Virus record (IMG/VR): IMGVR_UViG_3300048833_000771
Location: 1 to 26,270 of that record
Source of the DNA: a virus
Strand: one strand, 5' to 3'
Length of the DNA: 26,270 bases
This document shows positions 1,943 to 26,270 of the stretch, piece after piece (position 1 is the stretch's first letter; each line of letters begins with the position of its first letter). The position numbers and the translations under genes are program-made. Below the pieces are notes generated by a model. That model was not told the origin of the DNA. It saw only the letters and a program-made list of their open reading frames with translations, and did no database searches.

Positions 1943-2208
1943 CACCCGCCCTCCTTCATGGCCGCGTCGCGGGCGGCAAGGAAGCTCTCGCCGGCATAGG
2001 TTAAGACGAGACGGTCTTTGTGCGCCGGGTTGTGCGGCACGTAGACTTCGACAAGTCGCTGACGTTCGAGACGAAGGCGTACCGAGTCAGGGATTAGGTC
2101 GTACCGCTGCCCCGGATACATGCCGCCACGACGGGCTCCGATCTCGCGCAGCCATTTCACGTCTTTCGCACGTACCGGGCGCTCTCCGGCCTTCGCGGGG
2201 TCAGTCAT
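1942..2208 (-). CDS. Small winged-helix-like hypothetical protein
   Basis: The likely protein is 88 aa, starting at the ATG at 2206-2208. That start overlaps the stop of the DUF5131 gene by 8 bp (ATGACTGA), the same arrangement as at the integrase start. A longer frame runs further upstream, but it lies entirely over the DUF5131 gene and is not needed. The segment LIPDSVRLRLERQRLVEVYV followed by LVLTYAGESFLAAR resembles the recognition helix and wing of small winged-helix proteins. This is inference from pattern only. A role as a small DNA-binding early protein is possible. Confidence 0.6.
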   Translation of the reverse strand: MTDPAKAGERPVRAKDVKWLREIGARRGGMYPGQRYDLIPDSVRLRLERQRLVEVYVPHNPAHKDRLVLTYAGESFLAARDAAMKEGG

Positions 2209-3614: not shown

Positions 3615-3763
3615 CGATGGGCCGCAACTCAGCGTAAACCAGCAACGTCGACGCTTCCGCGTCGGCGGTCGCGGAAATCGTCTCATGAGGCGCGCGATCG
3701 GTTGCAATGGGCCCGACCCGACAGGGCGACCTTCCCAACGCAGCCCGGCCGCTACGGCCTAGA

Positions 3764-3786
3764 TCGCCCGCCGTGGGCGAGTTTTT
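3764..3786 (+). terminator. Intrinsic-terminator-like hairpin 1
   Basis: A perfect 6-bp stem TCGCCC/GGGCGA with a 5-nt loop is followed by GTTTTTG. It lies 150 bp after the NusG-like gene. The short stem makes it a modest terminator on its own. Confidence 0.55.
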
Positions 3787-3833
3787 GTGTTTACGTCAGC
3801 TAGAAGCGCCATCGACACTATCGACCCCATCAG

Positions 3834-6312: not shown

Positions 6313-6775
6313 CGCCAAGGTGCTCGACTATCTCCGCCAGGCCATCGCCTCGGAGTTCCGGGCCTCGTCGCAGTATACCCTGCATGCTGGTGCGCTGGAG
6401 AACTGGGGCTATGGAGGCCTCGCCAAGCACGAGCGGCGCGAGGCTAAGGAAGAGAAGGGCCACGCCCGCCGCTACATCGAACGCCTGACGTTCCTCAAGG
6501 GCGACATGGACGTGGGCGACATCGGCGCGCCGGCCGTCGGCAACAGCGTGCCGGAGATCCTGATGTCGGACCTGCGGGCCGAGCGCGAGGCTGTCGCCCT
6601 CTACACCGAGGCGGCGGTGCACGCCCGGTCGGTGGGCGACCTGGTCACGGCCGATCTGTTCGAGTCCATCCTCGCCGATGAGGAGGGGCACGTGAATTGG
6701 CTGGAGACACAGCTGGGTGGCATCGATGCCCTCGGCCTGCAAGGCTACCTGCAGCAGCAGTTCGACCGGGCCTAA
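6302..6775 (+). CDS. Bacterioferritin-like protein
   Basis: This 157-aa protein has the same length and register as bacterial Bfr. The six diiron (ferroxidase) ligands are all present at the standard numbers: Glu18, Glu51, His54, Glu94, Glu127 and His130, with Tyr25 also kept. Family landmarks are ASEFRASSQYTLHAG, ENWGY, ERLTFLKG and DEEGHVNWLETQL. The Met at position 52 that ligates haem between Bfr subunits is replaced by Lys (EKGH), so a haem-free cage or smaller assembly is expected. The role would be iron oxidation and storage, or protection from peroxide. The start at 6302 lies inside the end of the upstream gene. It sits between the HNH nuclease and the terminase, an unusual place for an iron gene. 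Confidence 0.88.
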   Translation: MSTDAKVLDYLRQAIASEFRASSQYTLHAGALENWGYGGLAKHERREAKEEKGHARRYIERLTFLKGDMDVGDIGAPAVGNSVPEILMSDLRAEREAVALYTEAAVHARSVGDLVTADLFESILADEEGHVNWLETQLGGIDALGLQGYLQQQFDRA

Positions 6776-6926
6776 ACCCAAGGCCCTCCATACCCCACGG
6801 GGGTAGGGGGGTTTAATTATGTATGCCACCATGGGGGCGCCCAACCGCTAGGGGGCCCATTCGCACAATCTGAGGGGGGGCTTTGATTTCTCGCCCCTCG
6901 ATAATCAAACGTGAAATTGGCAGGAA
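6776..6926. other. Candidate cos / terminase recognition region
   Basis: This 150-bp gap before the small terminase is unlike its surroundings, with G-tracts alternating with AT-rich patches. It holds a perfect inverted repeat TACCCC-ACG-GGGGTA (about 6792-6806), the palindrome GGGCGCCC followed by a second GGGGGCCC tract, and a 7-bp inverted repeat TTTGATT (6882-6888) / AATCAAA (6903-6909) with a 14-bp spacer. The combination of an HNH nuclease upstream, terminase downstream and dyad symmetry is what a cos site and its binding site look like. This is inference; the cut points cannot be read. Confidence 0.45.
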
Positions 6927-6989
6927 TTGATTGATGCGCAAGGGAAAATCGCCCGGATATCAATCGATCCGCGTCCGGATGTCCTGAGA

Positions 6990-7403
6990 GTGGCACGAGG
7001 CGGGTTCCGGCCTGGGGCCGGACGTCCGAAGGGATCGGGCAAGAAGACCGCGAAGCGAGAGCCGAAGGGCGCCGGGAAGAAAGCGACGCCGATCGGTGAC
7101 GCTGTCGAGAAGGTGCTCAAGGCGACCGACCCGGCGAGCAAGTCGCAGACCTCGACCAAGCGGTTCGAGACGGCGCTGGATTTCGCGATGGCGGCCATCA
7201 ACGGCGATGTCGATGGCGTCGAGGTGGACGACAAGGTCCGCCTGGCCGTCGCGGCAATGCCCTTCCAGCATGCGCGCCTGGCCGACAAGCCGATGACGAA
7301 GGCGGAGGCGCGCAGCGCGAAGGCCAAGGCCGGCTCGACCGGGAAATATGCGCCGGTCGCTCCTCCAGGCAGCCGGCCGAACCTTGTGGTTGATAATGGC
7401 TAA
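6990..7403 (+). CDS. terS: Terminase small subunit
   Basis: The protein is 137 aa from GTG 6990, which gives the familiar opening MARGGFRPGAGRPKGSGKK. A TTG at 6927 would add 21 residues and is the alternative. The Arg/Gly/Lys-rich N-terminus is followed by a helical core ending DKVRLAVAAMPFQHARL, which matches the R-x-x-x-A-x-x-A-A-P-Y-x-H segment of phage small terminases. It recognises cos/pac DNA and hands it to the large subunit. The gene end overlaps the large-subunit start by 8 bp. Confidence 0.75.
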   Translation: MARGGFRPGAGRPKGSGKKTAKREPKGAGKKATPIGDAVEKVLKATDPASKSQTSTKRFETALDFAMAAINGDVDGVEVDDKVRLAVAAMPFQHARLADKPMTKAEARSAKAKAGSTGKYAPVAPPGSRPNLVVDNG

Positions 7404-9111
7404 GCCCGTCTGGTCGACGGCGTGTCTCGACTGGGAAGAAAGGATTATGGCGCGGCAATCGCTCGTGCCGTTCTCGCCGCTCTTCCCTGAGCAGGCCGAA
7501 GGCGCCATGCAGGTCTTTCGGGATCTGCGCATCGTGGACATGCCCGGCCGGCCGACCATCGGAGAGGCGTGCCGGCCCTGGGTGTTCGATCTGCCGAATG
7601 CCCTGTTCGGCTCCTATGACGTTGACGACGGCCCCAGCGGGCGCCGGCTGATCCGCGAATACATGCTCCTCGTGAGCAAGAAGAACTGGAAGTCCGGCAA
7701 CGCCGCCTCGATCATGCTGACCGCCCTGCTGCGCAACTGGCGCGACGAGGCGGAGTTCCTGATCGTCGCGCCGACGATCGAGATCGCCAACAATTCGTTC
7801 AACCCGGCCGCGGCGATGGTGCGGGCCGACGAGGAGCTCTGGGAAGAGGAAGGCGGGTTTCTTCGCGTCCAGCCGAACTTCCGGACCATTACCGACCGCC
7901 GCAACGGCGCCACGCTGAAGGTCATTGCTGCCGACAACGAAACGGTGGGCGGCAAGAAGGCGTCGGGGGTGTTCATCGACGAGCTTTGGCTCTTCGGTAA
8001 GCGCCCGCACGCGGAGAACATGTTCCGGGAGGTCACGGGCGGCCTGGCGTCGAGGCCGGAAGGCTTCGTGATCTATGCCTCAACCCAGTCGGATGAGCCT
8101 CCGGCCGGCATCTTCGCCCAGAAGCTGGAATATTTCCGCGCGGTGCGCGACGGGAAGATCGAGGACCCGCGGAGCCTCGGCCTGCTCTACGAGTTCCCCC
8201 AGCGCGTGCTGGACACGGAGGGATATAAGGATTCGGCGTTCTGGCACGTCACGAACCCAAATCTCGGGGCCTCAGTCGACGAGCAGTTCATCGCCGACGA
8301 GTTCCAGAAGGCGGAATCTGCCGGCCCGGCCAGTCTTCGGGGCTTCCTCGCCAAACACCTGAACGTCGAGATCGGCCTAGCGCTCTCGAACAAGGGGTGG
8401 GAGGGCGCCGAGTTCTGGGAGCCGGCGGCGATTTCCATCCCTTCGCTGCAGGATTTCCTGCGGCGGGTTGAGGTGGTGGTGGCGGGGATCGACGGCGGCG
8501 GCCTCGATGACCTTCTCGGCCTCTGCCTGCTGGGCCGCGAGAAGGGAACGGGTCGCTGGCTGGCCTGGTGCCGGGCGTGGGCTCATCGGATTGTGCTCAC
8601 CCGACGCAAGGACATCGCATCCAAGCTTGAGGATCTGCAGAAGGCCGGCTTCCTGACCATCGTCGATCTGCCGGGGAAGGATGTCGACGACGTCGCCGAC
8701 ATCATCATGGAGGTCGAGCAGTCGGGCATGCTGGCCGCGGAGAAGGCCGTCGGCGTCGACGTGGTCGGCATCGTCGACATCGTCGACGAGCTGGTGACGC
8801 GCGGCATCGCGCTGGAGCGCATCATCGGTATTTCGCAAGGCTGGAAGCTGAACGGCGCGATCAAGTCGTCGGCGCGCAAGCTCGCCGGCGGGGAACTTAA
8901 GCACGAGGGCTCACCCCTCATGGCCTGGTGTGTCGGCAACGCGCGCACCGAGCCAAAGGGAAACGCCATCACCATCACCAAACAGGTCAGCGGCTCGGCG
9001 AAGATCGACCCGTTGATGGCGCTGTTCAACGCTGTGTCGCTGATGTCGCTCAATCCGGAGCCCGGCGGCGGCCCTTCGGTCTACGAAGACCGCGGCTTCT
9101 TTTTCGTCTGA
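7396..9111 (+). CDS. terL: Terminase large subunit
   Basis: This 571-aa protein starts at ATG 7396 inside the end of terS. The ATPase domain carries a Walker-A-like VSKKNWKSG (residues 93-101) and Walker B GVFIDELW with Asp195/Glu196. The C-terminal nuclease domain has the acidic triad candidates Asp366 (AGIDGGG), Asp455 (GVDVVG) and Asp538 (KIDPLMA). The protein pumps genomic DNA into the prohead through the portal and cuts it. Length and motif order are normal for the HK97/Terminase_1 type, and nothing is missing. Confidence 0.95.
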   Translation: MAKPVWSTACLDWEERIMARQSLVPFSPLFPEQAEGAMQVFRDLRIVDMPGRPTIGEACRPWVFDLPNALFGSYDVDDGPSGRRLIREYMLLVSKKNWKSGNAASIMLTALLRNWRDEAEFLIVAPTIEIANNSFNPAAAMVRADEELWEEEGGFLRVQPNFRTITDRRNGATLKVIAADNETVGGKKASGVFIDELWLFGKRPHAENMFREVTGGLASRPEGFVIYASTQSDEPPAGIFAQKLEYFRAVRDGKIEDPRSLGLLYEFPQRVLDTEGYKDSAFWHVTNPNLGASVDEQFIADEFQKAESAGPASLRGFLAKHLNVEIGLALSNKGWEGAEFWEPAAISIPSLQDFLRRVEVVVAGIDGGGLDDLLGLCLLGREKGTGRWLAWCRAWAHRIVLTRRKDIASKLEDLQKAGFLTIVDLPGKDVDDVADIIMEVEQSGMLAAEKAVGVDVVGIVDIVDELVTRGIALERIIGISQGWKLNGAIKSSARKLAGGELKHEGSPLMAWCVGNARTEPKGNAITITKQVSGSAKIDPLMALFNAVSLMSLNPEPGGGPSVYEDRGFFFV

Positions 9112-9117
9112 GGCAAC

Positions 9118-9306
9118 ATGAAACGCATCTGGTCCGGCCTGTTCGCCGCGCTCTCTGGAGCGGCGGAGAAAATCGGCGCGCGTGAACTGATGCTCGTCAT
9201 CGGCCTCGGTCTGGTCGGATACGGGCTCTTTCTCGTGTTCCCGCCGGCGGCGTTCGTCGTGCCGGGCGCCGTTCTGTGTGCTGTCGCCGTGTTCGGTGTC
9301 CTCTGA
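9118..9306 (+). CDS. Small two-TM membrane protein between terminase and portal
   Basis: This 62-aa protein has a charged amphipathic N-terminus (KRIWSGLFAALSGAAEKI) followed by two hydrophobic stretches: ELMLVIGLGLVGYGLFLVF and AAFVVPGAVLCAVAVFGVL. Its stop overlaps the portal start (TGATG). Small membrane ORFs at this place are frequent in HK97-like phages, and no role is established that I know of. Confidence 0.6.
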   Translation: MKRIWSGLFAALSGAAEKIGARELMLVIGLGLVGYGLFLVFPPAAFVVPGAVLCAVAVFGVL

Positions 9307-10622
9307 TGGGGTTCCTTTCCGGTCTGTCCCGTGAGGCCGCGTTCTCGGCGCCCGTTACGCGAGCGTCTGCGGGCGTCCCCGCCCAGGGGTTTCTGCCGAC
9401 GCTTGGCTCTACGCCGAGCGCGACGGGCCTTTCGATTTCGCAGGGCACGGCCATGTCCGTGTCGGCGGTCTATGCGTGCGTCAGCCGGCGCGCCTCCGAC
9501 GTGGCGCGGTGCAAGCCGTCACTGATGAAGGTCGTCGATGGCAAGCCGACCGTCATTGATAACCATCCTGTCGCCAAGCTGTTCCGCCGGCCAAACTGGG
9601 TGCAGACCTGGTTCGAATTCGCGCAGCAGATGGAAACGGCGCTGCTGCTGCGCACCAACGCTTATGCAGCGATCATTCGTGAGAGGGATGGCCTTCCGAA
9701 GGCGATGATCCCGATCAACCCTGATGCGGTGATGGTTCTGGAAGCCGCCGACGGGTCGATCTTCTACAACACGAACCGCATCGGCCTGTTCCAAATCGCT
9801 GCACTGCGCGACTTCGGCGTCGCTATCCCGGCCGAAGATATGTTCCACCTGCGCGGCCTAACCTTCAACATGCTGGTCGGCGCCTCGACGATCGGTCTGG
9901 CACGAGATTCCATCGGCGTCGCGATGGGGCTGGAGCAGCAGGCGGCGCGATGGATGGCGAACGGCGCCAAGCCGTCCGGAGTGCTCAAGACCGCGAAAAC
10001 TCTTACCGCCGATGCAGCCATTCGGCTGCGGGAACAATGGAACCAGTTCTCCAGCGGCCTGCTGAATACCGGGCGGACGGCGATCCTCGAAGAAGGGTTG
10101 GAGTGGCAGCAGCTCCAGATGAGCGCCCAGGACGTGGCCTTCATCGAGCAGCGCAACCATCAGGTGGCGGACATCGCACGGTTCTATGGCGTGCCGCTGC
10201 ACAAGCTCAATGTCCCGATGACAGGCGCGCAGCCGGACCCGCAGAAGGCCCAGCAGGTTTATGTCAACGACGTGATCATGGCCGATCTTGAACTCTGGGA
10301 GCAGAAATTCGAGCAGGTCTTTGACCTGGACGACGAAGGCCTCTCGGTCGAGTTCGACGAGCGCAAGCTGCTCCGCGCCGATGAAGCGACCCGCATCAAC
10401 AATCAGCGTCTGGCCGTGATGTCTGGCCTGCGAACCCAGAATGAATGTCGCGCCGAGGAAGGGCTGCCCCCGAGGGAGGGCGGCGATGAGCTTCTGCGGC
10501 CAGTCAATCTTGCCGCCAGCGGATCGGACATGACCGGCACCGCGCCCGACGGCGCCGGCCGGCCGGAAGCCGGGGACCTCCCCGACCCCGGCGCTGCCAA
10601 TGAGACCCCGGAGGAAAAATGA
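9306..10622 (+). CDS. HK97-type portal protein
   Basis: This 438-aa protein starts at ATG 9306, coupled to the upstream gene. Family landmarks in order are VYACVSRRASDVA, RTNAYAAIIRERDGLPKAM, DMFHLRGLTFNMLVGAS, ARWMANGAKPSGVL, ILEEGLEWQQLQMSAQDVAF and IARFYGVPLHKL. It forms the dodecameric ring at one capsid vertex through which DNA enters. The C-terminal 35 residues are Gly/Pro/Glu-rich and probably disordered. It overlaps the protease gene by 4 bp (ATGA). Confidence 0.94.
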   Translation: MGFLSGLSREAAFSAPVTRASAGVPAQGFLPTLGSTPSATGLSISQGTAMSVSAVYACVSRRASDVARCKPSLMKVVDGKPTVIDNHPVAKLFRRPNWVQTWFEFAQQMETALLLRTNAYAAIIRERDGLPKAMIPINPDAVMVLEAADGSIFYNTNRIGLFQIAALRDFGVAIPAEDMFHLRGLTFNMLVGASTIGLARDSIGVAMGLEQQAARWMANGAKPSGVLKTAKTLTADAAIRLREQWNQFSSGLLNTGRTAILEEGLEWQQLQMSAQDVAFIEQRNHQVADIARFYGVPLHKLNVPMTGAQPDPQKAQQVYVNDVIMADLELWEQKFEQVFDLDDEGLSVEFDERKLLRADEATRINNQRLAVMSGLRTQNECRAEEGLPPREGGDELLRPVNLAASGSDMTGTAPDGAGRPEAGDLPDPGAANETPEEK

Positions 10623-12004
10623 GCGCTGCTCGTCTGACCAAGGTCTATAAGGCCGCGACCGAAGCGCTGGCCGACAAGCGCCAGGTGCGGGTCATCTGCT
10701 CAACCGAGGAGGTTGATCGCGCCGGCGAGATCGTCGTGCAAGCCGGGATCGACTTTTCGCACTACATGGCGAGCGGGGCGGGCACGGTTCTGTGGAACCA
10801 TGACACCGACAAGCCCATCGCCAAGTGCGTCGACATTGTCGTCCGCAATGGGCGCATCGAGGCGCTGGTGCAGTTCCCGCCCGAGGGTGAGGACGAAGAG
10901 GCCGATCGCTATTACGCGAAAATCAAGTTCGGGTCCGTCTCCGGCATTTCCATCGGTTTCGCGCCGATCGAGATGGAGCCTCTCGACCGCTCCAACCCCA
11001 AGAAGGGCCCGCAGAAATATCTCAAGGCGGAGCTGCTGGAATTCTCCTTCACCCCGGTGCAGGCAAATCGCGGATCCTTGGTGATCGAGCGCGGCGCCGG
11101 CGCGGTGTGGAAGGTCGGCGCGTCGCTCAATCTGAGCGCCTCGGATGAGGCGGGTTGGGATGAGGGGCAGGCAAGCGAGAGCATCTTCGACAAGGCTGGT
11201 TTTGGCAGCGATACGCCCGACCCGACCTTCGCTCGCAAGGGGTTCCTCCTCTACGACGCCTCGCGGCCGGCTGATCGCAAATCGTATCAGCTGCCCTTCG
11301 CCAAGATGGTCGACGGCCGCCTCGTCGCCGATGCCGAAGGTCTCAAGGCCGCTGGCGAATTCCTCCAGCAGAGCAGCATTCCCGAGGACGTGGCCGAAAA
11401 GGCCCGGGCGGTGATCAACCATTACGAGGGCAAGATGGCCAAGACGGACAAGCCGGTGGCGAAGACCGCACCGGCCATCAAGGTGAAGGGCCTCTATGAC
11501 ATCGGGCGCCTTGCCTCTCTGCTCAGTGAGCTCGGGTGGGTCCACGACTGCTCTGTGTGGGAAGCGCAGATGGAGGAAGATGGCAGCGGCGTCCCGAAAA
11601 TGCTGGCGGACGCCATGCAGGCCGTCGCCGCCGCACTGCTTGCGATGACCGCCGAGGAAGTCGCCGAACTGCTCGCACAGATCACGCCGGAAGGCGAAAT
11701 GACGGTCAAGGCCGGCCTCGTGCCGGCGACCGCCAGCCCGATCAAAAAGGCCTTCACCGCCGCGCGCGTGAAGGCCGGCCGCAAATTCTCCGCTTCCACC
11801 CGTTCGTCCATGCGCTCCGCCTGCAAGTCCATCATAGACGGGCATGACGCGCTGGTCGCCCTGATCGGCGTGGAGGAGGAAGACGACGACGAGGGCGAGG
11901 AGCCCGAAGACGTCGAGAAGAACGCCAAACCCGACATGGGCGCGGCGGTGCTGCTGAACCAGCGTCAGCGGCGCCTTGAAGTGATGCGGCGACAGGCCGC
12001 CTGA
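10619..12004 (+). CDS. HK97-type prohead protease with long XkdF-like C-terminal extension
   Basis: Residues 1-160 are the prohead protease. The likely catalytic residues are His61 (LWNHDTDKPIA), Ser111 (GSVSGISIGF) and an acidic residue in AELLEFSFTPVQAN (about Glu138). It cleaves the scaffold portion of the capsid protein during head maturation. The remaining 300 residues are unusual for a minimal protease. Residues about 200-275 (GFLLYDASRPADRKSYQLPF and following) resemble the XkdF-type domain, then come an Ala/Glu-rich helical region, a Ser/Lys-rich segment (KFSASTRSSMRSACKSIID) and an acidic run near 420. The extension could be scaffold-like. Confidence 0.87.
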   Translation: MSAARLTKVYKAATEALADKRQVRVICSTEEVDRAGEIVVQAGIDFSHYMASGAGTVLWNHDTDKPIAKCVDIVVRNGRIEALVQFPPEGEDEEADRYYAKIKFGSVSGISIGFAPIEMEPLDRSNPKKGPQKYLKAELLEFSFTPVQANRGSLVIERGAGAVWKVGASLNLSASDEAGWDEGQASESIFDKAGFGSDTPDPTFARKGFLLYDASRPADRKSYQLPFAKMVDGRLVADAEGLKAAGEFLQQSSIPEDVAEKARAVINHYEGKMAKTDKPVAKTAPAIKVKGLYDIGRLASLLSELGWVHDCSVWEAQMEEDGSGVPKMLADAMQAVAAALLAMTAEEVAELLAQITPEGEMTVKAGLVPATASPIKKAFTAARVKAGRKFSASTRSSMRSACKSIIDGHDALVALIGVEEEDDDEGEEPEDVEKNAKPDMGAAVLLNQRQRRLEVMRRQAA

Positions 12005-12093: not shown

Positions 12094-13479
12094 ATGGAAA
12101 AGATCGCCCAGCTCCGCGCGAAGCACGCGGATATCATGGTGAAGATGAAGTCGCTCGCCGAGAAGGACGATGCCGACTTCACCGACGCCGACAAGACCGA
12201 ATTCGACGCCCTCACCAAGGAAGCGGACGCCGTCAGCGAGCAGATCACCCGGCAGAAGTCGGTGCAGGATCGCATGGCCGCGACCGCCCAGCCGACCATC
12301 GGTCAGGATCGCCCGGCCACCGTGCCGGCGGCTCCGGAAACGGATCGCTACGTCAAAGAAAAGTCCCTCGTGGTCGGCGGCATCGTGAAGATGCTCGGCG
12401 TCGGCGGCGGCAACATCTACGGCGCGCGCGAAGCCTCCAAGGATCTCTATGGCGAGAGCCATCCGGTCACCAAGGCGCTTATCGTCTCGTCCGGCCCCGC
12501 CGGCGGCTTCATCGTGCCGCCGGATTACATGAACGAGATCATCGAACTCCTGCGCCCTCGCGCTCAGGTCCGTGGCGCCCAGCCGCGCAACATCCCCATG
12601 CCGCGCGGCACCCTGACGATGCCCGGTCAAGCGTCGGCGGCCACGGCGCGGTATGGTTCGGAAAGTGCCCCGGCCACCGCAAGCCAGCCGTCGCTCAATT
12701 CGATCGTCGCCACCTACAAGAAGCTGACCGCATTCGTTCCCGTCTCGAACGACATGATGCGCTACGCCGATCCGGCCGTTGATGCATTCGTTCGCGACGA
12801 TCTGGTCAAGGTGCTTGCGCTTCGCGAGGATCTGGCTTTCCTGCTCGGCGACGGCACGGCCGATACCCCGCGCGGCTTCGCCTCTTTCGCCAATGCCTAT
12901 GCGGTGGCGAGCGGCGGCACGGGTGGCGTGTGGAGCACCACCGGCAACTCGACCGCGGCCTCGGGTGGAAACTTCATCACGTCGACCTCGTCCTACACGC
13001 TGGCGACTGCGGCGCAGGAGCTTGGTGGTCTGGTCAACAAGCTCGACACCGCCAACGTGGTGGAAAGTCGCCGCGTGTGGTTCATGCATCCGCGCTCCAA
13101 GAACTACCTGTACAATGTGCAGAACTCGCTCGGCGTCTATGTTTACCGGGACGAGATGAACACCGGAAAGCTGCTGGGCTATCCGTTCCGCACCACAACG
13201 CAGATCCCGACCAACATCCGCAACGGCGACAGTTCGCAGACAGACTGCTCGTTCGTCATCCTGGCCGAAATGGACGAGGCCATGATCCTCGACTCCATGC
13301 AGCTGGAGCTGGCCGTGTCCCGCGAAGGTTCGTACGTCGACACCAGCGGTGCGACCATCTCGGCGTTCCAGAACGACCAGACCCTGATCCGCGCCATCAC
13401 CGAGCACGATTTCCAGATGCGGCACGACGCCGCCATCGCGATCTCGCAGTTCGTGCGCTGGGCGCCGGCCATCTCGTGA
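12094..13479 (+). CDS. HK97-fold major capsid protein
   Basis: This 461-aa protein starts at ATG 12094 with GAGGA about 8 bases upstream. The first 60 residues form a charged coiled coil (EKIAQLRAKHADIMVKMKSL), the delta/scaffold domain removed by the protease, then a linker to about 110. The capsid body begins near SSGPAGGFIVPPDYMNEIIE and shows the usual NIPMPRGTLTMPG, KKLTAFVPVSNDMMRYADP, ALREDLAFLLGDG, WFMHPRSKNYL and LGYPFRTTTQIP. It makes the icosahedral shell. Length and order are complete. Confidence 0.96.
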   Translation: MEKIAQLRAKHADIMVKMKSLAEKDDADFTDADKTEFDALTKEADAVSEQITRQKSVQDRMAATAQPTIGQDRPATVPAAPETDRYVKEKSLVVGGIVKMLGVGGGNIYGAREASKDLYGESHPVTKALIVSSGPAGGFIVPPDYMNEIIELLRPRAQVRGAQPRNIPMPRGTLTMPGQASAATARYGSESAPATASQPSLNSIVATYKKLTAFVPVSNDMMRYADPAVDAFVRDDLVKVLALREDLAFLLGDGTADTPRGFASFANAYAVASGGTGGVWSTTGNSTAASGGNFITSTSSYTLATAAQELGGLVNKLDTANVVESRRVWFMHPRSKNYLYNVQNSLGVYVYRDEMNTGKLLGYPFRTTTQIPTNIRNGDSSQTDCSFVILAEMDEAMILDSMQLELAVSREGSYVDTSGATISAFQNDQTLIRAITEHDFQMRHDAAIAISQFVRWAPAIS

Positions 13480-13485
13480 TCATCG

Positions 13486-13507
13486 GGGCCGGAACTGCCG
13501 GCCCTTT
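13486..13507 (+). terminator. Hairpin after the capsid gene
   Basis: A perfect 7-bp GC stem GGGCCGG/CCGGCCC with loop AACTG is followed by TTT. It begins 7 bases after the capsid stop. The T-run is short, so partial termination or 3'-end protection of the capsid mRNA is more likely than a full stop. Confidence 0.5.
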
Positions 13508-13539
13508 CGCCCTGACATCCCCTTCGAAGGACATCCGCC

Positions 13540-14010
13540 ATGAGCGATATCGTTCTCCAGGCGAACGTGGCCTCGCTGGGCTCTCTCAAGAGCCTGTCGG
13601 GCCCCGCCGCCGCCACTGCCGCCGGCACCGGCGACAGCTCCACCACCACCGGCCGTACCGTGGACCGCTTCGGGTTCTCGTCCGGCGGCATCCCCGGCAC
13701 TCTGGCCGCGGGCATCGCCTGGGACGCGACCCTGGCCACCAGCAAGACGCTTTCTGTCGGCTACGCCGTTCAGGACAGTGCCGACGGCAGCTCGTGGAAC
13801 GATTACCAAACCGGCACCTATGCGGTTGTCGCGACTGGTTCGACGGGCGCCTCGGTGCTCGGCGGCGAGCTGGAAGTGCCGGTCGATCTGCGCAGCGCGC
13901 GCCGCTATGTGCGCGTCAACTTCGCGCTCGACCTGTCCGCCACCGGCACTGATACCGCCGTGGCGCGCTCGATCGGCTTCTTCGCCGGCTTCGACCGTCT
14001 TCCGCAGTGA
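13540..14010 (+). CDS. Capsid cement / decoration-like protein (Bbp16-like)
   Basis: This 156-aa protein starts at ATG 13540 with AAGGA eight bases upstream. It is Gly/Ser/Thr-rich with beta-like segments (GYAVQDSADGSSWNDYQTGT, then YVRVNFALDLSATGTDTAVA) and no membrane segment. The position right after the capsid gene, the size and the beta-rich pattern match capsid cement proteins of the Bbp16 type, which bind the shell surface at its symmetry axes. The family assignment is from pattern memory only. It has hairpins on both sides, suggesting its mRNA level is set separately. Confidence 0.7.
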   Translation: MSDIVLQANVASLGSLKSLSGPAAATAAGTGDSSTTTGRTVDRFGFSSGGIPGTLAAGIAWDATLATSKTLSVGYAVQDSADGSSWNDYQTGTYAVVATGSTGASVLGGELEVPVDLRSARRYVRVNFALDLSATGTDTAVARSIGFFAGFDRLPQ

Positions 14011-14014
14011 CATT

Positions 14015-14042
14015 ACGAGGGCGGGCGACGGCTCGCCCTCGT
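14015..14042 (+). terminator. Hairpin after the cement gene
   Basis: A 9-bp perfect stem ACGAGGGCG/CGCCCTCGT with a 10-nt loop starts 4 bases after the cement stop. What follows (TCCTCC) is a poor T-tract, so it may be an attenuator or an mRNA stabiliser. Confidence 0.4.
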
Positions 14043-14057
14043 TCCTCCGGGGGCAGC

Positions 14058-14630
14058 ATGAAATTGAACGTCGGCTGCGGCCGGAACATCAAAGACGGCT
14101 GGGTCAATCTCGACTGCATGGGCCTGCCCGGTGTCGACATTGTCGCCAATCTGGAAGCTGGGTGCACGATTCCGCTGGCCGACGACACGGTCGACGAATT
14201 CCTGCTGTCGCATGTGATCGAGCACATCCGCGACACGCTGCCCCTGATGCAGGAGCTGCATCGCATCGCCCGACCGGGCGCGCAGATGACCATCCGGGTG
14301 CCCTACGGCTCCAGCGACGACGCCCATGAGGACCCGACGCACGTTCGGTGCTATTTCCTCAAGAGCTTCAATTACTTCTCGCAGCCCTATTACTGGCGGG
14401 CCGATTACGGCTATCGCGGCGACTGGCGCACGACCGACATCTATCTCGTGATCGATCCCCGTTTTACCGGGTGTTCGGCGGAGCAGGTGATGTCGGCGCT
14501 GAAGGTCGAGCGGAACGTCGTTTCGGAAATGGTCGCCTGCCTGACGGCGGTCAAACCGATCCGGGCCCCCGAGCAGCGGCAGCATGTGCCGCCGAACATC
14601 CATCTTGTGGCATCCGGAGCGCATGAATGA
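14058..14630 (+). CDS. Class I SAM-dependent methyltransferase
   Basis: This 190-aa protein starts at ATG 14058 (MKLNVGCGRNIKDGWVNLDC). A longer frame from 14007 overlaps the cement gene and adds no family residues. The SAM motif I is LNVGCG, followed by the acidic residue in NLDC, then LADDTVDEFLLSHVIEHI and IARPGAQMTIRVPYG, a pattern of methyltransferases acting on sugars or small molecules. Its stop overlaps the start of the glycosyltransferase-containing ORF (ATGA), so the pair probably decorates a glycan or a virion component. It looks intact, in contrast to its partner. Confidence 0.85.
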   Translation: MKLNVGCGRNIKDGWVNLDCMGLPGVDIVANLEAGCTIPLADDTVDEFLLSHVIEHIRDTLPLMQELHRIARPGAQMTIRVPYGSSDDAHEDPTHVRCYFLKSFNYFSQPYYWRADYGYRGDWRTTDIYLVIDPRFTGCSAEQVMSALKVERNVVSEMVACLTAVKPIRAPEQRQHVPPNIHLVASGAHE

Positions 14631-17371
14631 CCGAGCATGCCCGTCTCGAACGGATGAAGTCGCGTTCGGTGATGGTGTGCACCCCCGTGGCGCGCAATCC
14701 GGTGTGGCAGTACACCCAAGGCTTGGCCTCGACGATGATGACGCTTCTCGAGCACGGCATCCCCTGCTCGTTTCAGTTCGTCGTCGGCGGTTCGGTGATC
14801 TGCAAGGCGCGGAATGAGCTGGTGGCGCACTTCCTCGCTTCGCGGTTCACCGACCTGATCTTCATCGACGACGACATGGAGTGGAGCCCGAACGACGTCC
14901 TGCGCCTGCTGGCCTCTGACAAGCAGGTGATCGGCGGCGTGGGCCGGATGCGCGTCGAGAATCCGACCGGCGACGGCACGTGGTCGCTGCTGGGCAGCGA
15001 GTTCTCAAAATTCTTCAAGTCGAAGTCCGACATTCGCTTCAGCGTTGCCGGCGATGTCGCGCCCGGCCGCTACGAGGTGCGGCTGCGCCGACTGATCTTC
15101 AAGAGCACGGACCCCAACGTCTCTGACACCATGACCTGGGCGGGTCTGCGCGCTTTCATCACCGGGCCGAAATCCTTCCCGGTCAGCACCATCGCGATCC
15201 GCGCCAAGGCCACCGATCAGTTCTCCGGCGATTCCGCCAGCAACCTCGCCGTGGTGGAGACGCGCATCCTCCCGGTGTGGACTGGTTCGGCATGGGAGGA
15301 GCAGGCGACGCGCTCGCCGGCCTGGGCGGCCTACGACATCGCCACCAACACGGAATATGGCGGCCGGTTCTCCGACACGCGGATGGACTTCCAGGCGTTC
15401 TATGACCTCGCCGCCCTGTGTGCGAGCCGTGGCGACACGTTCGACTACGACTTCACGTCCACCCAGCCGGTGCCGGATGCCCTCGATGTCGCGCTCGGCG
15501 CCTGCCGGGCAAAGCACAAATGGCTCGGCGGCACGCTCTCGCTGTTCCGGGACGAATGGGCGTCGGTTCCCGAGGTGATGCTGACGGATGGCGAGATCGT
15601 CCGGGGCTCCCTCGAGATCGAGTACATCATGAAGCCGTCCGACGCGCAGCAGTGCGTCGTCCATGAGTACATCAACGAGGACACCTGGCAGATCGAGGAA
15701 GCTGTGGCCCCGCGAGACGCCACGGAAGAAATGATCGCCGACGCCACGCGGCTCCAGCTGGCAGGCGTGGTGAACCGGGCGCAAGCGCAAAGGGAAGCGG
15801 AATTCCTGCTGCGCCAGAACCTTTATAGGCGCCGGCACGCGACCTTCGAGACCGAATATGAAGGCCGGATGCTCTCGATCGGCACGCCGATCCTGCTGCA
15901 ATCCGATCTTCCCCTCGAATGGGGGCAGGGCGCCAAGATTGCCCAGCAGATCGACACGGCGCTTTATCTCGACCGGAAACTGACCTGGGAGGCCGGGCAG
16001 AACTATGTCGTGCTGCGGACGCCGCGCGCCAAGGCCTTCGGCCCGATCAAGTGCAGCATGGGCGACAACGCGTCCGTCGTGGTGCTGGACAATACCGATC
16101 TCGGCATTGTCGAAGCCGCGCAGGGGCTGACGCTCGACAATGTGCTTGATCTGGAGCCCGGTTCGCCGCTGCCCAGCCTTGCCTTCGGGCTCGGCACTGG
16201 TTGGGTGCGCCGGGGCGTTGTCTCGCGCGGCACTCCTTCGGGAAGCCGGGTGCAGATCAGCGTCTATCTGGACGATGAGCGTGTCCATGTGGAGGACGGC
16301 ACGCCGCCGCCTCCGCTGCCGACGGGCACGAGCCTTGTGCTGCCGACCTTCCCGCAGGTCTTCGGCCTCACGGCCCGCATCATCGCCAATGAGGTGCCGC
16401 GCCGCGTGGAAGCTCAGTGGGCACCGTCGGCCGGCGCCGTCACCTATGTGGCGCGCGTCTCCTATGACGACGGGGAAAACTGGACGGCGCTCGGCGAGAC
16501 CCGCGAGAACATCCTTTCCGCCGTGGTGGACCCTTTCGCGCTCACGCTACAGGTAGCCGCAATCAACACGTCCGGCAAGCAAGGGCCGTGGGCGTCCTAC
16601 AGCCTCGCCGCTCCGGGCCCAGACGAGGTGCGCGCGGACAATATCCAGGCCACCATCGACAGCTTCAAGGCCGGTACCCGCGAAAAGGTCTTTGAGCAGA
16701 ACGACGCGGCACTGGCGACCCTGACCGAAAAGCAGGAGATGCAAGCCCAGATCCAAGCGGAACTTGACGCGCAGTCCTTCCTCGATCGGCAGGAATGGCG
16801 CTTCCAGCTGAGGGCGACAAGCGATCGGGTGACGGCCTCCTACACCGAGGCGATCACGGTCGCTGTTGGGCCCGGCTCCGCCATTGCCCAGTCGATCACG
16901 GACCTGCAAGCCCAGGTCGACAACATCGGCGCGAACCTGAATGTCAGCTGGACGACGGCGGTAACACCCGCCGGCGCGCTGGCAGCCTATGACATCGTCG
17001 CCAAGGTAGATGACGGCCTGTCCACCACGCAGGCGGCTATGACCATCGCGGCCTATTCGGACGGCGGCGGTGGCGCCTATTCGGTGGTGTCGTTCGACGC
17101 CGAGCAGTTCATCGTCAAGAACACGGTGAGCGGATCGACCATCACCCCGTTCGTCATTGATGGCACAAGCGTGACCATCTCCGGCACGATCATCCAGGAC
17201 GGCACGGTGACGGCGGAGAAGATGGATGTCGCCGAACTAAGCGCCGTCGCCGTGAGCATGGGCACCCTCAGGGGCGGCAGCATCGAGCTTGGGCCAGAGG
17301 GCGAGGATCCGCTCATCGTCCTCAGCGGCGCCACGCCTTCGGCTCCCTTCCTCGATTTCTATTCCGCATAG
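14627..17371 (+). CDS. Chimera: truncated glycosyltransferase fused in frame to TipJ/protein-J tail-tip protein
   Basis: This is a single 914-aa frame. Residues 1 to about 110 are the start of a GT-A glycosyltransferase: SVMVCTPVARNPVW, GSVICKARNELVAHFL and the metal-binding FIDDDMEWSPNDVLRLL. The domain breaks off at VIGGVGRMRVENP, less than half of its usual 230-260 aa. From about residue 113 (TGDGTWSLLG) the sequence is a tail-tip attachment protein: PGRYEVRLRRL, MTWAGLRAFI, RILPVWTGSAW, SPAWAAYDI, RGDTFDYDF, a fibronectin-like segment near 585-660 (AQWAPSAGAVTYVARVSYDD) and a C-terminal fibre-like domain. The usual N-terminal third or more of TipJ is absent. A deletion joining the two genes near 14,942-14,978 explains it. 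Each half alone is well recognised; function of the chimera is doubtful. Confidence 0.88.
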   Translation: MTEHARLERMKSRSVMVCTPVARNPVWQYTQGLASTMMTLLEHGIPCSFQFVVGGSVICKARNELVAHFLASRFTDLIFIDDDMEWSPNDVLRLLASDKQVIGGVGRMRVENPTGDGTWSLLGSEFSKFFKSKSDIRFSVAGDVAPGRYEVRLRRLIFKSTDPNVSDTMTWAGLRAFITGPKSFPVSTIAIRAKATDQFSGDSASNLAVVETRILPVWTGSAWEEQATRSPAWAAYDIATNTEYGGRFSDTRMDFQAFYDLAALCASRGDTFDYDFTSTQPVPDALDVALGACRAKHKWLGGTLSLFRDEWASVPEVMLTDGEIVRGSLEIEYIMKPSDAQQCVVHEYINEDTWQIEEAVAPRDATEEMIADATRLQLAGVVNRAQAQREAEFLLRQNLYRRRHATFETEYEGRMLSIGTPILLQSDLPLEWGQGAKIAQQIDTALYLDRKLTWEAGQNYVVLRTPRAKAFGPIKCSMGDNASVVVLDNTDLGIVEAAQGLTLDNVLDLEPGSPLPSLAFGLGTGWVRRGVVSRGTPSGSRVQISVYLDDERVHVEDGTPPPPLPTGTSLVLPTFPQVFGLTARIIANEVPRRVEAQWAPSAGAVTYVARVSYDDGENWTALGETRENILSAVVDPFALTLQVAAINTSGKQGPWASYSLAAPGPDEVRADNIQATIDSFKAGTREKVFEQNDAALATLTEKQEMQAQIQAELDAQSFLDRQEWRFQLRATSDRVTASYTEAITVAVGPGSAIAQSITDLQAQVDNIGANLNVSWTTAVTPAGALAAYDIVAKVDDGLSTTQAAMTIAAYSDGGGGAYSVVSFDAEQFIVKNTVSGSTITPFVIDGTSVTISGTIIQDGTVTAEKMDVAELSAVAVSMGTLRGGSIELGPEGEDPLIVLSGATPSAPFLDFYSA

Positions 17372-17376
17372 GCGCC

Positions 17377-18726
17377 ATGAGCACAAACACGACGATCGCC
17401 GTCATTGACGGCGTCGTGCGCTTGCGCACGGGCCTTGCCGGGCACGACCTGAAAGACCCGGCTCTTGATGAGCGCTATCTAACGTTCGACAGCGCTTGGA
17501 CCAATGCCTTCCGGCTGCTCAAGGGCGGCGTGGTGGCTGGGGGCAGTCTTTCGACGCAGAGCTTCAGCTATCCCGCCAATCCGGTGGTGGGCACCCGTAC
17601 GGTCAGGCGCATCCCCGTCACCGGGGCGACGGTCAAGACACCGGCTCTTGCGTGGGCAACGGCGGGCAGCGGAACAGTGAACTGGCATCCCGCCGGCAGG
17701 CTGCTCTCGCTCCCACCCGATACCGTCAGCTATCAGAAAGCGTATCGCACGTGCGCCGTCAATCTCGCGACCGATGAAATCAAGGTTTCGCCGTCCTTCA
17801 GCACGCGGGATTACGCCTATCTTGTGTTCCAGACCGACGCCACGGCCACGGAGGCGACGGGGCCGAACGGCGGCAGGATCGGCGTTCACCCGCTCTATGG
17901 GATGGGGGCTTTCATCTCCCGTCCGGGGTTCGACCATCTGACCTGCTCACTGGACGACATGATGCTGACGACCAGTCGCAACATGGTGCAGATTCGCGAG
18001 ACAGGCATGGCGACGCCGACGCAGTGGACCGGCGGCGGGGCGCGGTCCCCTGCGGACACTGTCTATGGCGGACCATTTAATGAAAGCGCGACTATTCGAT
18101 ACGGGGTCAGGATCACATTAAGTCGAAGCTATCCAGATTATCCGCCAGTCATAGCTTATCGGATGGATACGGGATATCTTGACTCCCTGCCGTCGATATT
18201 CTGGGTGAGTGCCAATGAAATCATCATTGGCAATCTTCTGTCAGACAACACCGTCCGCTACGCCATTCTTGGTGTCGATCCCGCATACACGCCGGCAACT
18301 GATACTGGTCGCATCAAGCGCATTCGCTTCTTCAACGGCGCGCTCGACATCACCAAGCACAACGTGAACTGGGAAGCCGCCGCCGAGGCGGACTTTTTAT
18401 TTCGGTCCAATCGGCAAACGCCACGGTTCACCGGCTTCAACGCTTTCCCGGTTTCTTTCCCGACGGGCGTCTATAGCCTTCCATCTGCCGCGCCAGCGGG
18501 GGCCGGTCCCTCTTTCGCGTTCTTCCTCGTAAACGACACAGCAGGTCTATGGTGGTGCGGCTGCGGATACACCGACATGCAAAACGTGGTCGGTAGCGGC
18601 GGAACATATAACTCCTATTGGCGCGGCGCAGTTATCAACCGATCACAGTATCGATGGTACAAAGACACGTCCATCACCTGGAATCCATTGGGCTGGATTG
18701 GCTCTATGAACGTCTCCGACTTCTAG
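17377..18726 (+). CDS. Putative tail-associated virion protein
   Basis: This 449-aa protein begins five bases after the tail-tip gene. I recognise no domain. It is rich in aromatic and small residues with alternating beta-like segments (SLSTQSFSYPANPVVGTRTV), has no signal peptide or long helix, and sits between the tail-tip and tailspike genes, where accessory fibre proteins are encoded. Base composition falls in AT-rich patches near 18060-18200 and 18600-18740. This suggests that receptor-binding segments were exchanged. Two Cys lie in WWCGCGY near residue 393. Confidence 0.6.
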   Translation: MSTNTTIAVIDGVVRLRTGLAGHDLKDPALDERYLTFDSAWTNAFRLLKGGVVAGGSLSTQSFSYPANPVVGTRTVRRIPVTGATVKTPALAWATAGSGTVNWHPAGRLLSLPPDTVSYQKAYRTCAVNLATDEIKVSPSFSTRDYAYLVFQTDATATEATGPNGGRIGVHPLYGMGAFISRPGFDHLTCSLDDMMLTTSRNMVQIRETGMATPTQWTGGGARSPADTVYGGPFNESATIRYGVRITLSRSYPDYPPVIAYRMDTGYLDSLPSIFWVSANEIIIGNLLSDNTVRYAILGVDPAYTPATDTGRIKRIRFFNGALDITKHNVNWEAAAEADFLFRSNRQTPRFTGFNAFPVSFPTGVYSLPSAAPAGAGPSFAFFLVNDTAGLWWCGCGYTDMQNVVGSGGTYNSYWRGAVINRSQYRWYKDTSITWNPLGWIGSMNVSDF

Positions 18727-18756: not shown

Positions 18757-21297
18757 ATGGCTGACTTTTACGCGACCGGCACCGTATCGGTGTCGAACGG
18801 CAGCACGACTGTGACCGGCTCAGGGGTGTTGTGGAGTGACGTGCGCGCCGGTGACACTCTGGAGCTCGCCGGCCAGCGTGTGACGATCGCTGCCACGCCC
18901 GTTAGCCCCTACACCTCGCTGACGCTCGCGCTGGCATGGACGGGCACCACCCAATCAGGCGCCTCGTATTACATCCGCTACGACGCGCCATCGCGCTTCA
19001 CAGCCGGCTATCTCGCCACGCAAGTGCGATCCCTGATCGAGCGCACCAGCATCATCGAGTCCGCTGCGCCGACCTACACCGTGCAGGCTGTCACCAACAC
19101 CCCGCCGGGCTCCCCTGTCGCCGACGACACCTATGCGGTAGGGAATTCACCTTCCGGAGCGTGGTCGGCCAATGCCGGCAAGCTGGCCCAATGGACAGGC
19201 TCGGCGTGGACCTTCACCACGCCCGAAGCCGGATGGCTGGCCTATGCTGTGGGCGATGGGCAGTATGTCTATGATGGTGGATGGGTCCCCCAAGGCGACC
19301 AGTTCCATACAGAGACACTGACCGACGCTTGGTTGAATGGAAAGGCGCCGAATGTCGTCTCTCGTGCTGCTCCGCGCTTCTTGACGCCGGAAATGTACAT
19401 CGGGCTTGATACCCAGATCATCTATTGCCCAGGCGGCGAAGTGCCTGACTTTTCAGGCGCTACCGACTTCAAGCCCGCTTTCGACGCCATGCGCGATGAG
19501 ATGCTGACGCTGCTGGAGGATGTCGAATGGCCGCCCACCTCTTCCTACGGGTGGAAGCGGCATAAATTCGGCATCGCGCTCCAGCCTGGCTTTCGCTATG
19601 CGGTAGATGGGCCTATCAACTTCACCGGGTTCCAGACGCGCGGCCTCGTTTTCCAAGGCAATGGCGCGCAGATCATCGGCCGCTTTGACGATGGCGCTGT
19701 TCTCGACCTCCTCGGGTCGGCAGGCTGGCGCGTCCGCGATCTCAGCATCGAGTCCTCGACTGGACTGTCTCCCGATCTCGGGGTGCTATTCGGGCGCGAA
19801 TTTCAAGGCGCCTCCAAGACCTGCGAGGGGATGCTCTTCGACAGCGTCCGTGTTGATGGATGGTGGCGCAAGGCTGGGGTGTACAATTCCGGGTCGGAGC
19901 TATTTACCTATATAAACCCCTCCGTCTACAGCTACCGCACCGACGTGCCGGCGCTCTGGATCGACTGCCAGAATGAGCTTGATGTCGCTACGCTTACGGC
20001 GTCCACGGTCGCTGATGTCGCACAGGGCGTGAACGAGAGCTGCATCCAGCACACCATTATCGGCGGGTACCTGCGAAACATCCAGGAGAACCAGTACGGC
20101 GCCGTGCGCATCGACGGCTCGCGCGACGGCGACCTGAACACGACGCGCGGCGTCAAGCTTATTGGAACGTATTTCACTAATAATGGCACCGACACGGACG
20201 CGGTGAGGCCTGCTGTTCGCATCCGTGGTATGGTTGACGACGTGCTCATTGACGGGCATGGAGAGCTGTCTAACCCGACTGACAGCATCGTAAACCTGTC
20301 TCATATACTGTATTTCGACCTTTCGGACACAGGAACGACGCACAAGTTCAGCGGGATAAAGGTTCGGGACTATTTCAGCGACGCCGAAATCGCGGTGATA
20401 GGCAAGAGCAACACCGACACGATCGAGCTGGCAGACTTCGAGTGCTCCATCGCCTACAGCCGAGGCGCTTACCCGTCCGGCACGCCGGCCAAGCTGTTCG
20501 GCTCAAACTTCACGTCGGCGACCGCGCGCATCTCCGGCAAGATCACCACTGGCGATGTCCCCTCGACTTTCATCAATCTCAACGACGTCACGTTCAATGG
20601 CACGCTCGAGACGCTGGAGGTCATGTCGGGGGTAGGCGTCGGCTTGCCCGGCCGCATCAACATCAATACGACCGACGTTGCCGGCGGTAGCTACGTCAAG
20701 CAGGCCACGAAGCTCATCACGTCCAACGGCACGGTGGCGGTCGAAGGGCACGACAAGATCGTCCTTAGCGGCTCCGTGACGGCTGTCTCGTTTTCCAACG
20801 GGTTCCGCTATCACAGTTTTGAATGCGCCAATGGCACAAGCAACGATGTGACCATATCTGGGCTTGCCGGGCCGAATATCGTTCTTTCGCCGGGGCAGGC
20901 GGTTGTCATATCCCAGTATCAGACAACGTTCTATGTCGCTTCTGGGTCGTATTCGGGTGTATACACACCAACTTGCACAAACAATTCAAACGTCGCGTCT
21001 TTTACTACGCACCCGCTTCGGGTATTCCGATTGGGGAAGTATGTGCAAGTGTCTGGGCTTATACAGATCTCGGCAACGGCCGGCTCTGACACTGCGACCA
21101 GCTTTAACATGACGCTTCCGTTTGCCAGCGCCTTGACTGGAGCGCAGCAATTGACGGGCTCAGGCGCTGTCATTGGCCAGAATCGACCTGTCGGCGTTCT
21201 TGGCGATGCCACCAACGACCGGGCGCAAGTCACTCTGGTGGCCCCTGCCAGCGGCGCGCTGAACCTGTCGATCAGCTTCTCCTACGAAGTCCTCTAG
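18757..21297 (+). CDS. Tailspike / tail fibre protein
   Basis: This 846-aa protein starts at ATG 18757 with AAAGG nine bases upstream. Residues 1-95 (ATGTVSVSNGSTTVTGSGVL) are the common virion-attachment head of phage fibres. About 108-190 is a DUF2793-like segment (TPPGSPVADDTYAV, GKLAQWTGSAWTF, YVYDGGWVPQGDQF). About 220-620 has the short repetitive beta segments of a right-handed beta-helix, as in polysaccharide-degrading spikes (NFTGFQTRGLVFQGNGAQII, LLGSAGWRVRDLSIESSTGL). The last 115 residues (GVYTPTCTNNSNVASFTTH) form a C-terminal domain found on many unrelated fibres. It probably binds, and possibly cleaves, a surface glycan. AT-rich stretches near 20935-21080 fit module exchange. 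Confidence 0.82.
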   Translation: MADFYATGTVSVSNGSTTVTGSGVLWSDVRAGDTLELAGQRVTIAATPVSPYTSLTLALAWTGTTQSGASYYIRYDAPSRFTAGYLATQVRSLIERTSIIESAAPTYTVQAVTNTPPGSPVADDTYAVGNSPSGAWSANAGKLAQWTGSAWTFTTPEAGWLAYAVGDGQYVYDGGWVPQGDQFHTETLTDAWLNGKAPNVVSRAAPRFLTPEMYIGLDTQIIYCPGGEVPDFSGATDFKPAFDAMRDEMLTLLEDVEWPPTSSYGWKRHKFGIALQPGFRYAVDGPINFTGFQTRGLVFQGNGAQIIGRFDDGAVLDLLGSAGWRVRDLSIESSTGLSPDLGVLFGREFQGASKTCEGMLFDSVRVDGWWRKAGVYNSGSELFTYINPSVYSYRTDVPALWIDCQNELDVATLTASTVADVAQGVNESCIQHTIIGGYLRNIQENQYGAVRIDGSRDGDLNTTRGVKLIGTYFTNNGTDTDAVRPAVRIRGMVDDVLIDGHGELSNPTDSIVNLSHILYFDLSDTGTTHKFSGIKVRDYFSDAEIAVIGKSNTDTIELADFECSIAYSRGAYPSGTPAKLFGSNFTSATARISGKITTGDVPSTFINLNDVTFNGTLETLEVMSGVGVGLPGRININTTDVAGGSYVKQATKLITSNGTVAVEGHDKIVLSGSVTAVSFSNGFRYHSFECANGTSNDVTISGLAGPNIVLSPGQAVVISQYQTTFYVASGSYSGVYTPTCTNNSNVASFTTHPLRVFRLGKYVQVSGLIQISATAGSDTATSFNMTLPFASALTGAQQLTGSGAVIGQNRPVGVLGDATNDRAQVTLVAPASGALNLSISFSYEVL

Positions 21298-21342: not shown

Positions 21343-22293
21343 ATGGTAAGCATCACGCTTGACCAGATGCGCCGTTTTGCGCGCACTGGCCGCCCCGACA
21401 TCCTCGCGGCGGTTGCTGCCGGCGAGGCGGTCCTTTCGCGCTATGACATCACGACCCCGGGCCGGCTCTGCCATTTCATGGCGCAGATCGCGCATGAGAG
21501 CGCCGGCTTCCGCACCACCGAGGAATATGCCTCCGGCGGCGCCTATGAGGGGCGGAAAGACCTCGGGAACATGCGCAAGGGCGATGGCACGCGCTTCAAG
21601 GGGCGCGGCCTCATCCAGCTCACCGGCCGGGCCAATTATCGGCTCTACGGCCAGCGCCTCGGCGTGGACCTTGAGGCCCGTCCGGAGCGCGCCGCGGCGC
21701 CGGACTTCTCGCTCGTCGTCGCCTGTGAGTATTGGAAGGACAAGGGCCTGAACGCCTTCGCCGACCGGGATGATATCGTCGGTATCACCAAGCGGATCAA
21801 TGGCGGCACCAACGGCCTCGCTGATCGCAAGGCGAAGCTGAGCGCGGCAAAGGCGATCTGGGGCGATGAAACCGTGGCGCAGCCGGACGATGGCGCCGCG
21901 GTGAAGGCGTTGCAGCAAGATCTCGTCGCGCTGGGCTATGACCTGGAGGTCGACGGCGATCTCGGCAAGAAAACGAAGGCGGCGGTGGAGGCGGTCCAGC
22001 GTCGCGCGGGCATCAAGGTGGACGGCATCGCAGGCCCGGCGACCAAGAGCGCGATCAAGCGGCTTCTGGCCGCCCGGCCGGCCAATGGTGTGGCGGCGAA
22101 AATCCCCGGCGCGCTGGACGCGCTCAAGACCAAAGAGGGCATGGCGACGGCGGGCACGGTGGGTGTCGCTGTTCTCAACGCTGCGGCGAACCCCGGGCCG
22201 CTTGGCTGGTTCGTGGGCGCCGCCATCCTGATCGCCGCGGGCGTCGCCGCCTATTACTTCCTCAAGCGCATGCGGCGCGAGGAGGCGGTGTGA
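21343..22293 (+). CDS. GH19-type endolysin with peptidoglycan-binding domain and C-terminal TM segment
   Basis: This 316-aa protein starts at ATG 21343 with GGAG upstream. Residues 1-172 are a chitinase-class-I/GH19 lysozyme: AQIAHESAGFRTTEEYASGG supplies the catalytic Glu52 and the second Glu candidates 60/61, followed by FKGRGLIQLTGRANY and RINGGTNGL. Residues 186-242 form a PG_binding_1 domain (ALQQDLVALGYDLEVDGDLG). Residues about 286-308 are a hydrophobic segment (WFVGAAILIAAGVAAYYFL) followed by a basic tail, a C-terminal membrane anchor. It cuts peptidoglycan at the end of the lytic cycle. No N-terminal signal is present. The stop overlaps the holin-like gene (TGATG). Confidence 0.88.
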   Translation: MVSITLDQMRRFARTGRPDILAAVAAGEAVLSRYDITTPGRLCHFMAQIAHESAGFRTTEEYASGGAYEGRKDLGNMRKGDGTRFKGRGLIQLTGRANYRLYGQRLGVDLEARPERAAAPDFSLVVACEYWKDKGLNAFADRDDIVGITKRINGGTNGLADRKAKLSAAKAIWGDETVAQPDDGAAVKALQQDLVALGYDLEVDGDLGKKTKAAVEAVQRRAGIKVDGIAGPATKSAIKRLLAARPANGVAAKIPGALDALKTKEGMATAGTVGVAVLNAAANPGPLGWFVGAAILIAAGVAAYYFLKRMRREEAV

Positions 22294-26148: not shown

Positions 26149-26270
26149 AGCCGCAGGCACTCCTCGCACATCTCGCCGGCCGGCCCGCGCTTCGGGCAGT
26201 CGGCCGGGCACTCGGGCTGCATCAGCCAGCGACAGAGGCGGCGGGCGGCGGCGATCACGCACTCAGGCAT
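26133..26270 (-). CDS. 45-aa Cys-rich small protein
   Basis: The ATG lies at the very edge of the window. The peptide MPECVIAAARRLCRWLMQPE continues with CPADCPKR and EMCEECLRLWAIK. Cys at 21/25 and 35/38 form two Cys pairs suitable for one zinc. It overlaps the next gene by 16 bp. An upstream extension cannot be excluded because the sequence ends here. Confidence 0.5.
   Translation of the reverse strand: MPECVIAAARRLCRWLMQPECPADCPKRGPAGEMCEECLRLWAIK

Follow-up and report, generated by a model that had tools for sequence, protein, structure and literature searches.

Capsid-forming PICI satellites (cf-PICIs) carry head-completion (connector) genes of their own, which let helper tails join. 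They also make their own capsids, dedicated to their own genome (PMC10803314). Incomplete prophages are reported to have lost replication and structural genes and to retain integrase and fibre genes (PMC7744054). We consider here a stretch of viral DNA of 26,270 nucleotides (IMG/VR record IMGVR_UViG_3300048833_000771, positions 1 to 26,270; the window in what follows), which sequence comparison suggests is a cryptic (defective) prophage from an HK97-like siphophage lineage of Ancylobacter-group genomes, shaped by two deletions. We give this reading a probability of about 0.85. A literature search on deletions together with tail genes returned nothing. The features of the window are as follows.

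1-831, minus strand: integrase, tyrosine recombinase family (Pfam Phage_integrase, phrog_1).
3126-3176, minus strand: 3' end (~17 codons) of an HNH-type gene that junction 2 interrupts (tblastn to G032 ORF 16071-16541).
3172-3177, no strand: putative deletion junction 2, six common bases (CCTTCA), from mapping to the G032 prophage.
3174-3614, plus strand: NusG-like antiterminator gene without its 5' part, first ~52 residues lost (G032 homology, phrog_6386).
6927-7403, plus strand: probable small terminase subunit (phrog_641, E 1.7e-4, a weak match).
7348-9111, plus strand: large terminase subunit (phrog_9, E 1e-114; Pfam TerL_nuclease).
9276-10622, plus strand: portal protein (Pfam Phage_portal, E 1e-78; length as in DSM 2457).
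10619-12004, plus strand: prohead protease (Pfam Peptidase_S78; same length as in DSM 2457, 98% amino acid identity).
12094-13479, plus strand: HK97-type major capsid protein (Pfam Phage_capsid, E 1e-38; length as in DSM 2457).
13540-14010, plus strand: small protein matching phrog_5707 only, which assigns no function.
14007-14630, plus strand: methyltransferase, immediately 5' of the glycosyltransferase remnant (Pfam Methyltransf_11).
14627-14961, plus strand: 5' remnant of a predicted GT-A-fold glycosyltransferase, coding for residues 1-111 of 237 and including the common AA (99% DNA identity to G001, phrog_1574, fold match).
14960-14961, no strand: putative deletion junction 1, two common bases (AA), hybrid codon 112 (three-way alignment).
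14960-17371, plus strand: gpJ-like tail-tip gene without its 5' part, encoding residues 325-1127 of 1127 (amino acid identity, Pfam, phrog_31).
17377-18726, plus strand: conserved protein 3' of the tail-tip gene (98% amino acid identity to G018, 94% to DSM 2457, equal length).
18757-21297, plus strand: tail fibre/spike-like protein (tail fibre PHROGs, DUF2793; length as in G018).
21343-22293, plus strand: endolysin (phrog_181, E 2e-57).

The nearest relative is a prophage of Ancylobacter polymorphus DSM 2457 (IMGVR_UViG_2926570559_000004, here G001; a 53.5-kb viral record on contig NZ_JAUSUI010000013.1). Its head genes, methyltransferase, glycosyltransferase, tail tip and downstream genes stand in the same order as in the window, with 86-99% DNA identity in common blocks, but it retains the connector and tail block and the early/replication region, and differs in its large-terminase stretch and its fibre. 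Two further prophages, G018 and G032, come from genomes searched as congeners of DSM 2457. Their tail tip and downstream genes match the window at 93% DNA identity over 6.4 kb (G018) and 81% over 2.3 kb (G032), but in both the tail-tip gene is full-length (1124 and 1111 aa) with a tail block in front of it, and G032 has the early genes that the window would have lost at junction 2. The integrase and the long stretches of gene order that the window shares with the three prophages point to an origin from a temperate phage; the integrase region itself has a 97% DNA match at contig 12 of G005. Within the head and packaging region, the large-terminase stretch (6774-9075) has no DNA similarity to DSM 2457 and its flanks are ~93% identical, as in a swapped module. 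The final stretch of the window (26166-26270) stops at the same homologous base as the virus record of DSM 2457, although the DSM 2457 contig continues, and the ends may therefore be a common prophage boundary.

The ORF at 14627-17371 (plus strand) encodes 914 aa in an uninterrupted frame that joins two sources. Its upstream half corresponds to residues 1-111 of the 237-aa glycosyltransferase and its downstream half to residues 325-1127 of the lambda-gpJ-like tail-tip protein. Each half matches the DSM 2457 prophage record separately, window 14627-14973 at 28716-29062 (99% DNA identity) and window 14960-17369 at 44271-46680 (89%), which bears out the first-pass annotation in its reading of an in-frame fusion between these two genes. 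That annotation had also put the break at VIGGVGRMRVENP, which a three-way alignment finds exact to the codon. The AA at 14960-14961 are the only bases common to both sources at this point: the glycosyltransferase source runs ...GTCGAGAA up to the break and GCC beyond it, the tail-tip source runs ...CCGGCAA and then TCCGACC, and the window reads ...GTCGAGAATCCGACC across the junction. Codon 112 (14960-14962, AAT) is a hybrid, with AA common and T from the tail-tip gene; it is AAG (Lys) in the glycosyltransferase gene and AAT (Asn) in both the tail-tip gene and the window. The similarity of G018 and G032 to the window starts at 14956-14963, the same point. The alternative frames past the junction would hit stops after 43 and 54 codons, and survival of the frame, 1 in 3 by chance, needs no special explanation.

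The intact glycosyltransferase gene of the DSM 2457 prophage (28716-29429) encodes 237 aa. No Pfam match was found for the glycosyltransferase, and a profile search of PDB sequences with it gave chance-level matches only. Despite this, the GT-A assignment made in the first pass is backed by structure prediction for the full-length DSM 2457 protein, of which the AlphaFold2 model (mean pLDDT 84.8) matches glycosyltransferase structures in Foldseek, including GalNAc-T7 and GlfT2, at E around 1e-5 (best match GalNAc-T7, E 3.6e-6). With residues 1-111 alone kept, the complete fold is absent from the window, and the lost half holds conserved ED, DP and H positions and has several invariant ones. Glycosyltransferase relatives in other viral contigs are full-length (226-315 aa), and connector genes come next after the glycosyltransferase in most relatives checked. 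An adaptor homologue lies at most 1 kb after the full-length gene in three of these loci (L004, L005 and L006), and a split adaptor match lies 2.3 kb downstream of it in L007.

The intact tail-tip gene of the DSM 2457 prophage (43299-46682) encodes 1127 aa, and the fragment in the window has 93% amino acid identity to DSM 2457 and G018 and 84% to G032. Matches to Pfam Phage-tail_3 and Phage_Tail_Tip and to phrog_31 (central tail fiber J) show that the C-terminal hub and fibre domains of a gpJ-like protein are present. The fragment begins inside the FNIII-A domain, where only the second half of the FNIII-A_GpJ profile is matched; residues 1-324 are gone, and neither the N-terminal hub part nor a complete FNIII-A is retained. 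The 324 of 1127 residues missing (29%) come close to the N-terminal "third or more" estimated earlier. In lambda, the FNIII-A region, HDII and the HDII-insertion contact gpI, and the last tail ring is formed by HDII domains with gpL (PMC10721106). As the break lies inside FNIII-A, part of the gpI-contacting region in lambda, the fragment should not, by analogy, assemble into a hub. Most probably the fusion protein is inert, since it has neither the C-terminal half of the glycosyltransferase nor the N-terminal hub part of the tail tip.

A single open frame that retains a DxD-type motif and the tail-tip C-terminus might also be expected of a stable two-domain family with a glycosyltransferase as an integral part of the tail tip. 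The first-pass annotation had accepted that homologues with both domains would overturn its reading, and none was found: the matches are separate full-length glycosyltransferases or tail-tip proteins without a glycosyltransferase, 80% coverage of the fusion is reached in none of the 432 phage records, and searches of phage and plasmid collections returned no near matches. Both folds, moreover, are cut by the break. Since no other record searched has the fusion, we reject a stable family, which the homologue searches already contradict and to which we give next to no probability.

In the DSM 2457 prophage the source sites of junction 1 lie 15,222 bp apart. Between them are genes of the head-tail adaptor, head closure, tail completion and tail terminator families, together with tail tube, tail assembly chaperone, tape measure and minor tail/distal-tail genes. 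By tblastn (E<=0.01), none of the 53 connector-tail ORFs of DSM 2457, G018 and G032 is matched in the window, in agreement with the earlier claim that the tail-body module is missing; relocation of tail genes elsewhere in the window is rejected on the same search. The multi-kilobase, frame-preserving deletion proposed from the window itself is likewise supported by the intact relatives, and would measure 15.2 kb in DSM 2457 coordinates. A stretch of ~3.2 kb in the DSM 2457 prophage (34241-37456; L018 14242-17456), between chaperone-side genes and the tape measure, is absent from G032. If it was also missing from the ancestor of the window, the loss at junction 1 may have been nearer 12 kb. The "cement" label given earlier to 13540-14010 is not confirmed, its sole match being phrog_5707 (function unknown).

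Both junctions could in principle be artefacts of assembly or library preparation, chimeric joins of distant sites in an intact prophage, in which case the fusion would be absent from the cell. Neither junction is present in any other record searched, and two junctions on one contig would suit a chimera-prone sample. However, the joins share 2 bp and ~6 bp, far under assembler word lengths, and the window contains no N bases. At neither join is there a repeat of a length that would point to repeat-driven misassembly. The first-pass annotation had recommended looking for short repeats at the ends against an intact relative, and AA is all that the breakpoint holds; the two source sites of junction 1 have no repeat of more than 10 bp in common within 400 bp of them. 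Repeat-mediated deletion and repeat-driven misassembly at this junction are both rejected on that ground, and an artefact in general appears unlikely.

The element would be defective beyond its tail, because a second deletion, overlooked in the first pass, appears to remove the early region at 3172. In the G032 prophage, 16,778 bp separate the sites to which window segments 3127-3180 and 3172-3792 map, which suggests, mainly from this one relative, a large deletion of 16.8 kb against G032, part of which phage mosaicism could mimic. On one side of the junction is the end of the HNH-type gene, whose relative in DSM 2457 has matches among HNH endonuclease PHROGs. On the other, the product of 3174-3614 has 92% amino acid identity to residues 53-194 of a 199-aa G032 protein and matches phrog_6386 (transcription antiterminator). 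The G032 region spanned by the junction includes a repressor-like gene, with its first 50 residues matching phrog_769, and a 338-aa gene that has C-terminal sequence in common with a DSM 2457 replication-initiation-family gene. When the early proteins encoded by G032 and DSM 2457 were compared with the window by tblastn, the matches were limited to the two remnants flanking the junction and to a DUF5131 gene that is only distantly related. This DUF5131 gene (2201-3091, minus strand) looks like an insertion at window 2213-3092: at another locus of DSM 2457 (G005:C5), the sequences on its two sides, 2179-2213 and 3092-3126, follow each other directly. A ~875-aa helicase/methyltransferase gene has opposite orientations in the DSM 2457 (13011-15638) and G032 (13443-16070) prophages.

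Among the remaining genes, portal, protease, capsid and downstream genes are full length as in the relatives, the methyltransferase gene has 90-100% DNA identity to DSM 2457 per 100-base block, and the final few hundred bases 5' of junction 1 are 97-100% identical. In the tail-tip fragment, the window branch carries 41 synonymous and 14 nonsynonymous codons, against 69 and 30 on the G018 branch and 120 and 27 on the DSM 2457 branch, with no sign of relaxed constraint on the window branch in these counts. Pseudogene-like decay of the fragment is rejected, as amino acid changes are not in excess. The intact gene lengths, the codon counts and the identity just before junction 1 together fit a recent deletion.

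For a cryptic prophage, these observations would be explained as follows. One illegitimate deletion with 2-bp microhomology would have joined glycosyltransferase codon 112 to tail-tip codon 325, removing every connector and tail-body gene in between and preserving the frame by chance, and a second, with 6-bp microhomology at 3172, would have taken out the early region. The essential functions lost are visible in the window, which has no connector or tail-body homologue, no recognisable repressor gene and no early/replication homologue besides the junction remnants. At most, the element would produce proteins for its head, packaging, fibres and lysis; tail assembly and replication of its own would be out of reach, and it would persist passively, copied along with its host. 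With tail, connector and early genes lost, it most likely neither replicates nor yields infectious particles. The analysis covered the assembled 26,270-bp record, and the genome beyond it may still contain the genes that are missing here. What the locus records would be the ordinary decay of an old virus, unusually well resolved, with base-level breakpoints against close intact relatives. It also carries a caution, in that an open frame that runs from one phage module into another may be the scar of a deletion and not a new protein. The locus would gain in importance only through evidence that an intact phage helps the element to move.

Such movement is the premise of a capsid-forming phage satellite, with its own heads and helper-phage tails, for which the deletions would be adaptive streamlining. 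Like cf-PICIs, the window has head and packaging genes of its own and lacks tail genes; its integrase, terminase, portal, protease and capsid genes are intact, and the dedicated capsids of cf-PICIs offer a precedent. Unlike them, it has no homologue of the connectors of DSM 2457, G018 or G032, the head-tail adaptor and closure genes having been deleted too; it retains a broken tail-tip gene, fibres and lysis genes including the endolysin; no replication or regulatory module was found in it; and at 26 kb it is larger than the 14-kb cf-PICI average (PMC10803314). A second copy was not found. We regard such a satellite as very improbable, and see an equally slim chance of a head-encoding satellite newly born from a phage by the two deletions, which would fill its own heads and borrow the connectors and tails of a co-resident relative. 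The closer likeness is to cryptic ("grounded") prophages, which share with the window the loss of replication and structural genes and the retention of integrase and fibre genes (PMC7744054). Unlike that pattern, the window still has intact terminase, portal, capsid and endolysin genes, which fits a prophage at an early stage of decay.
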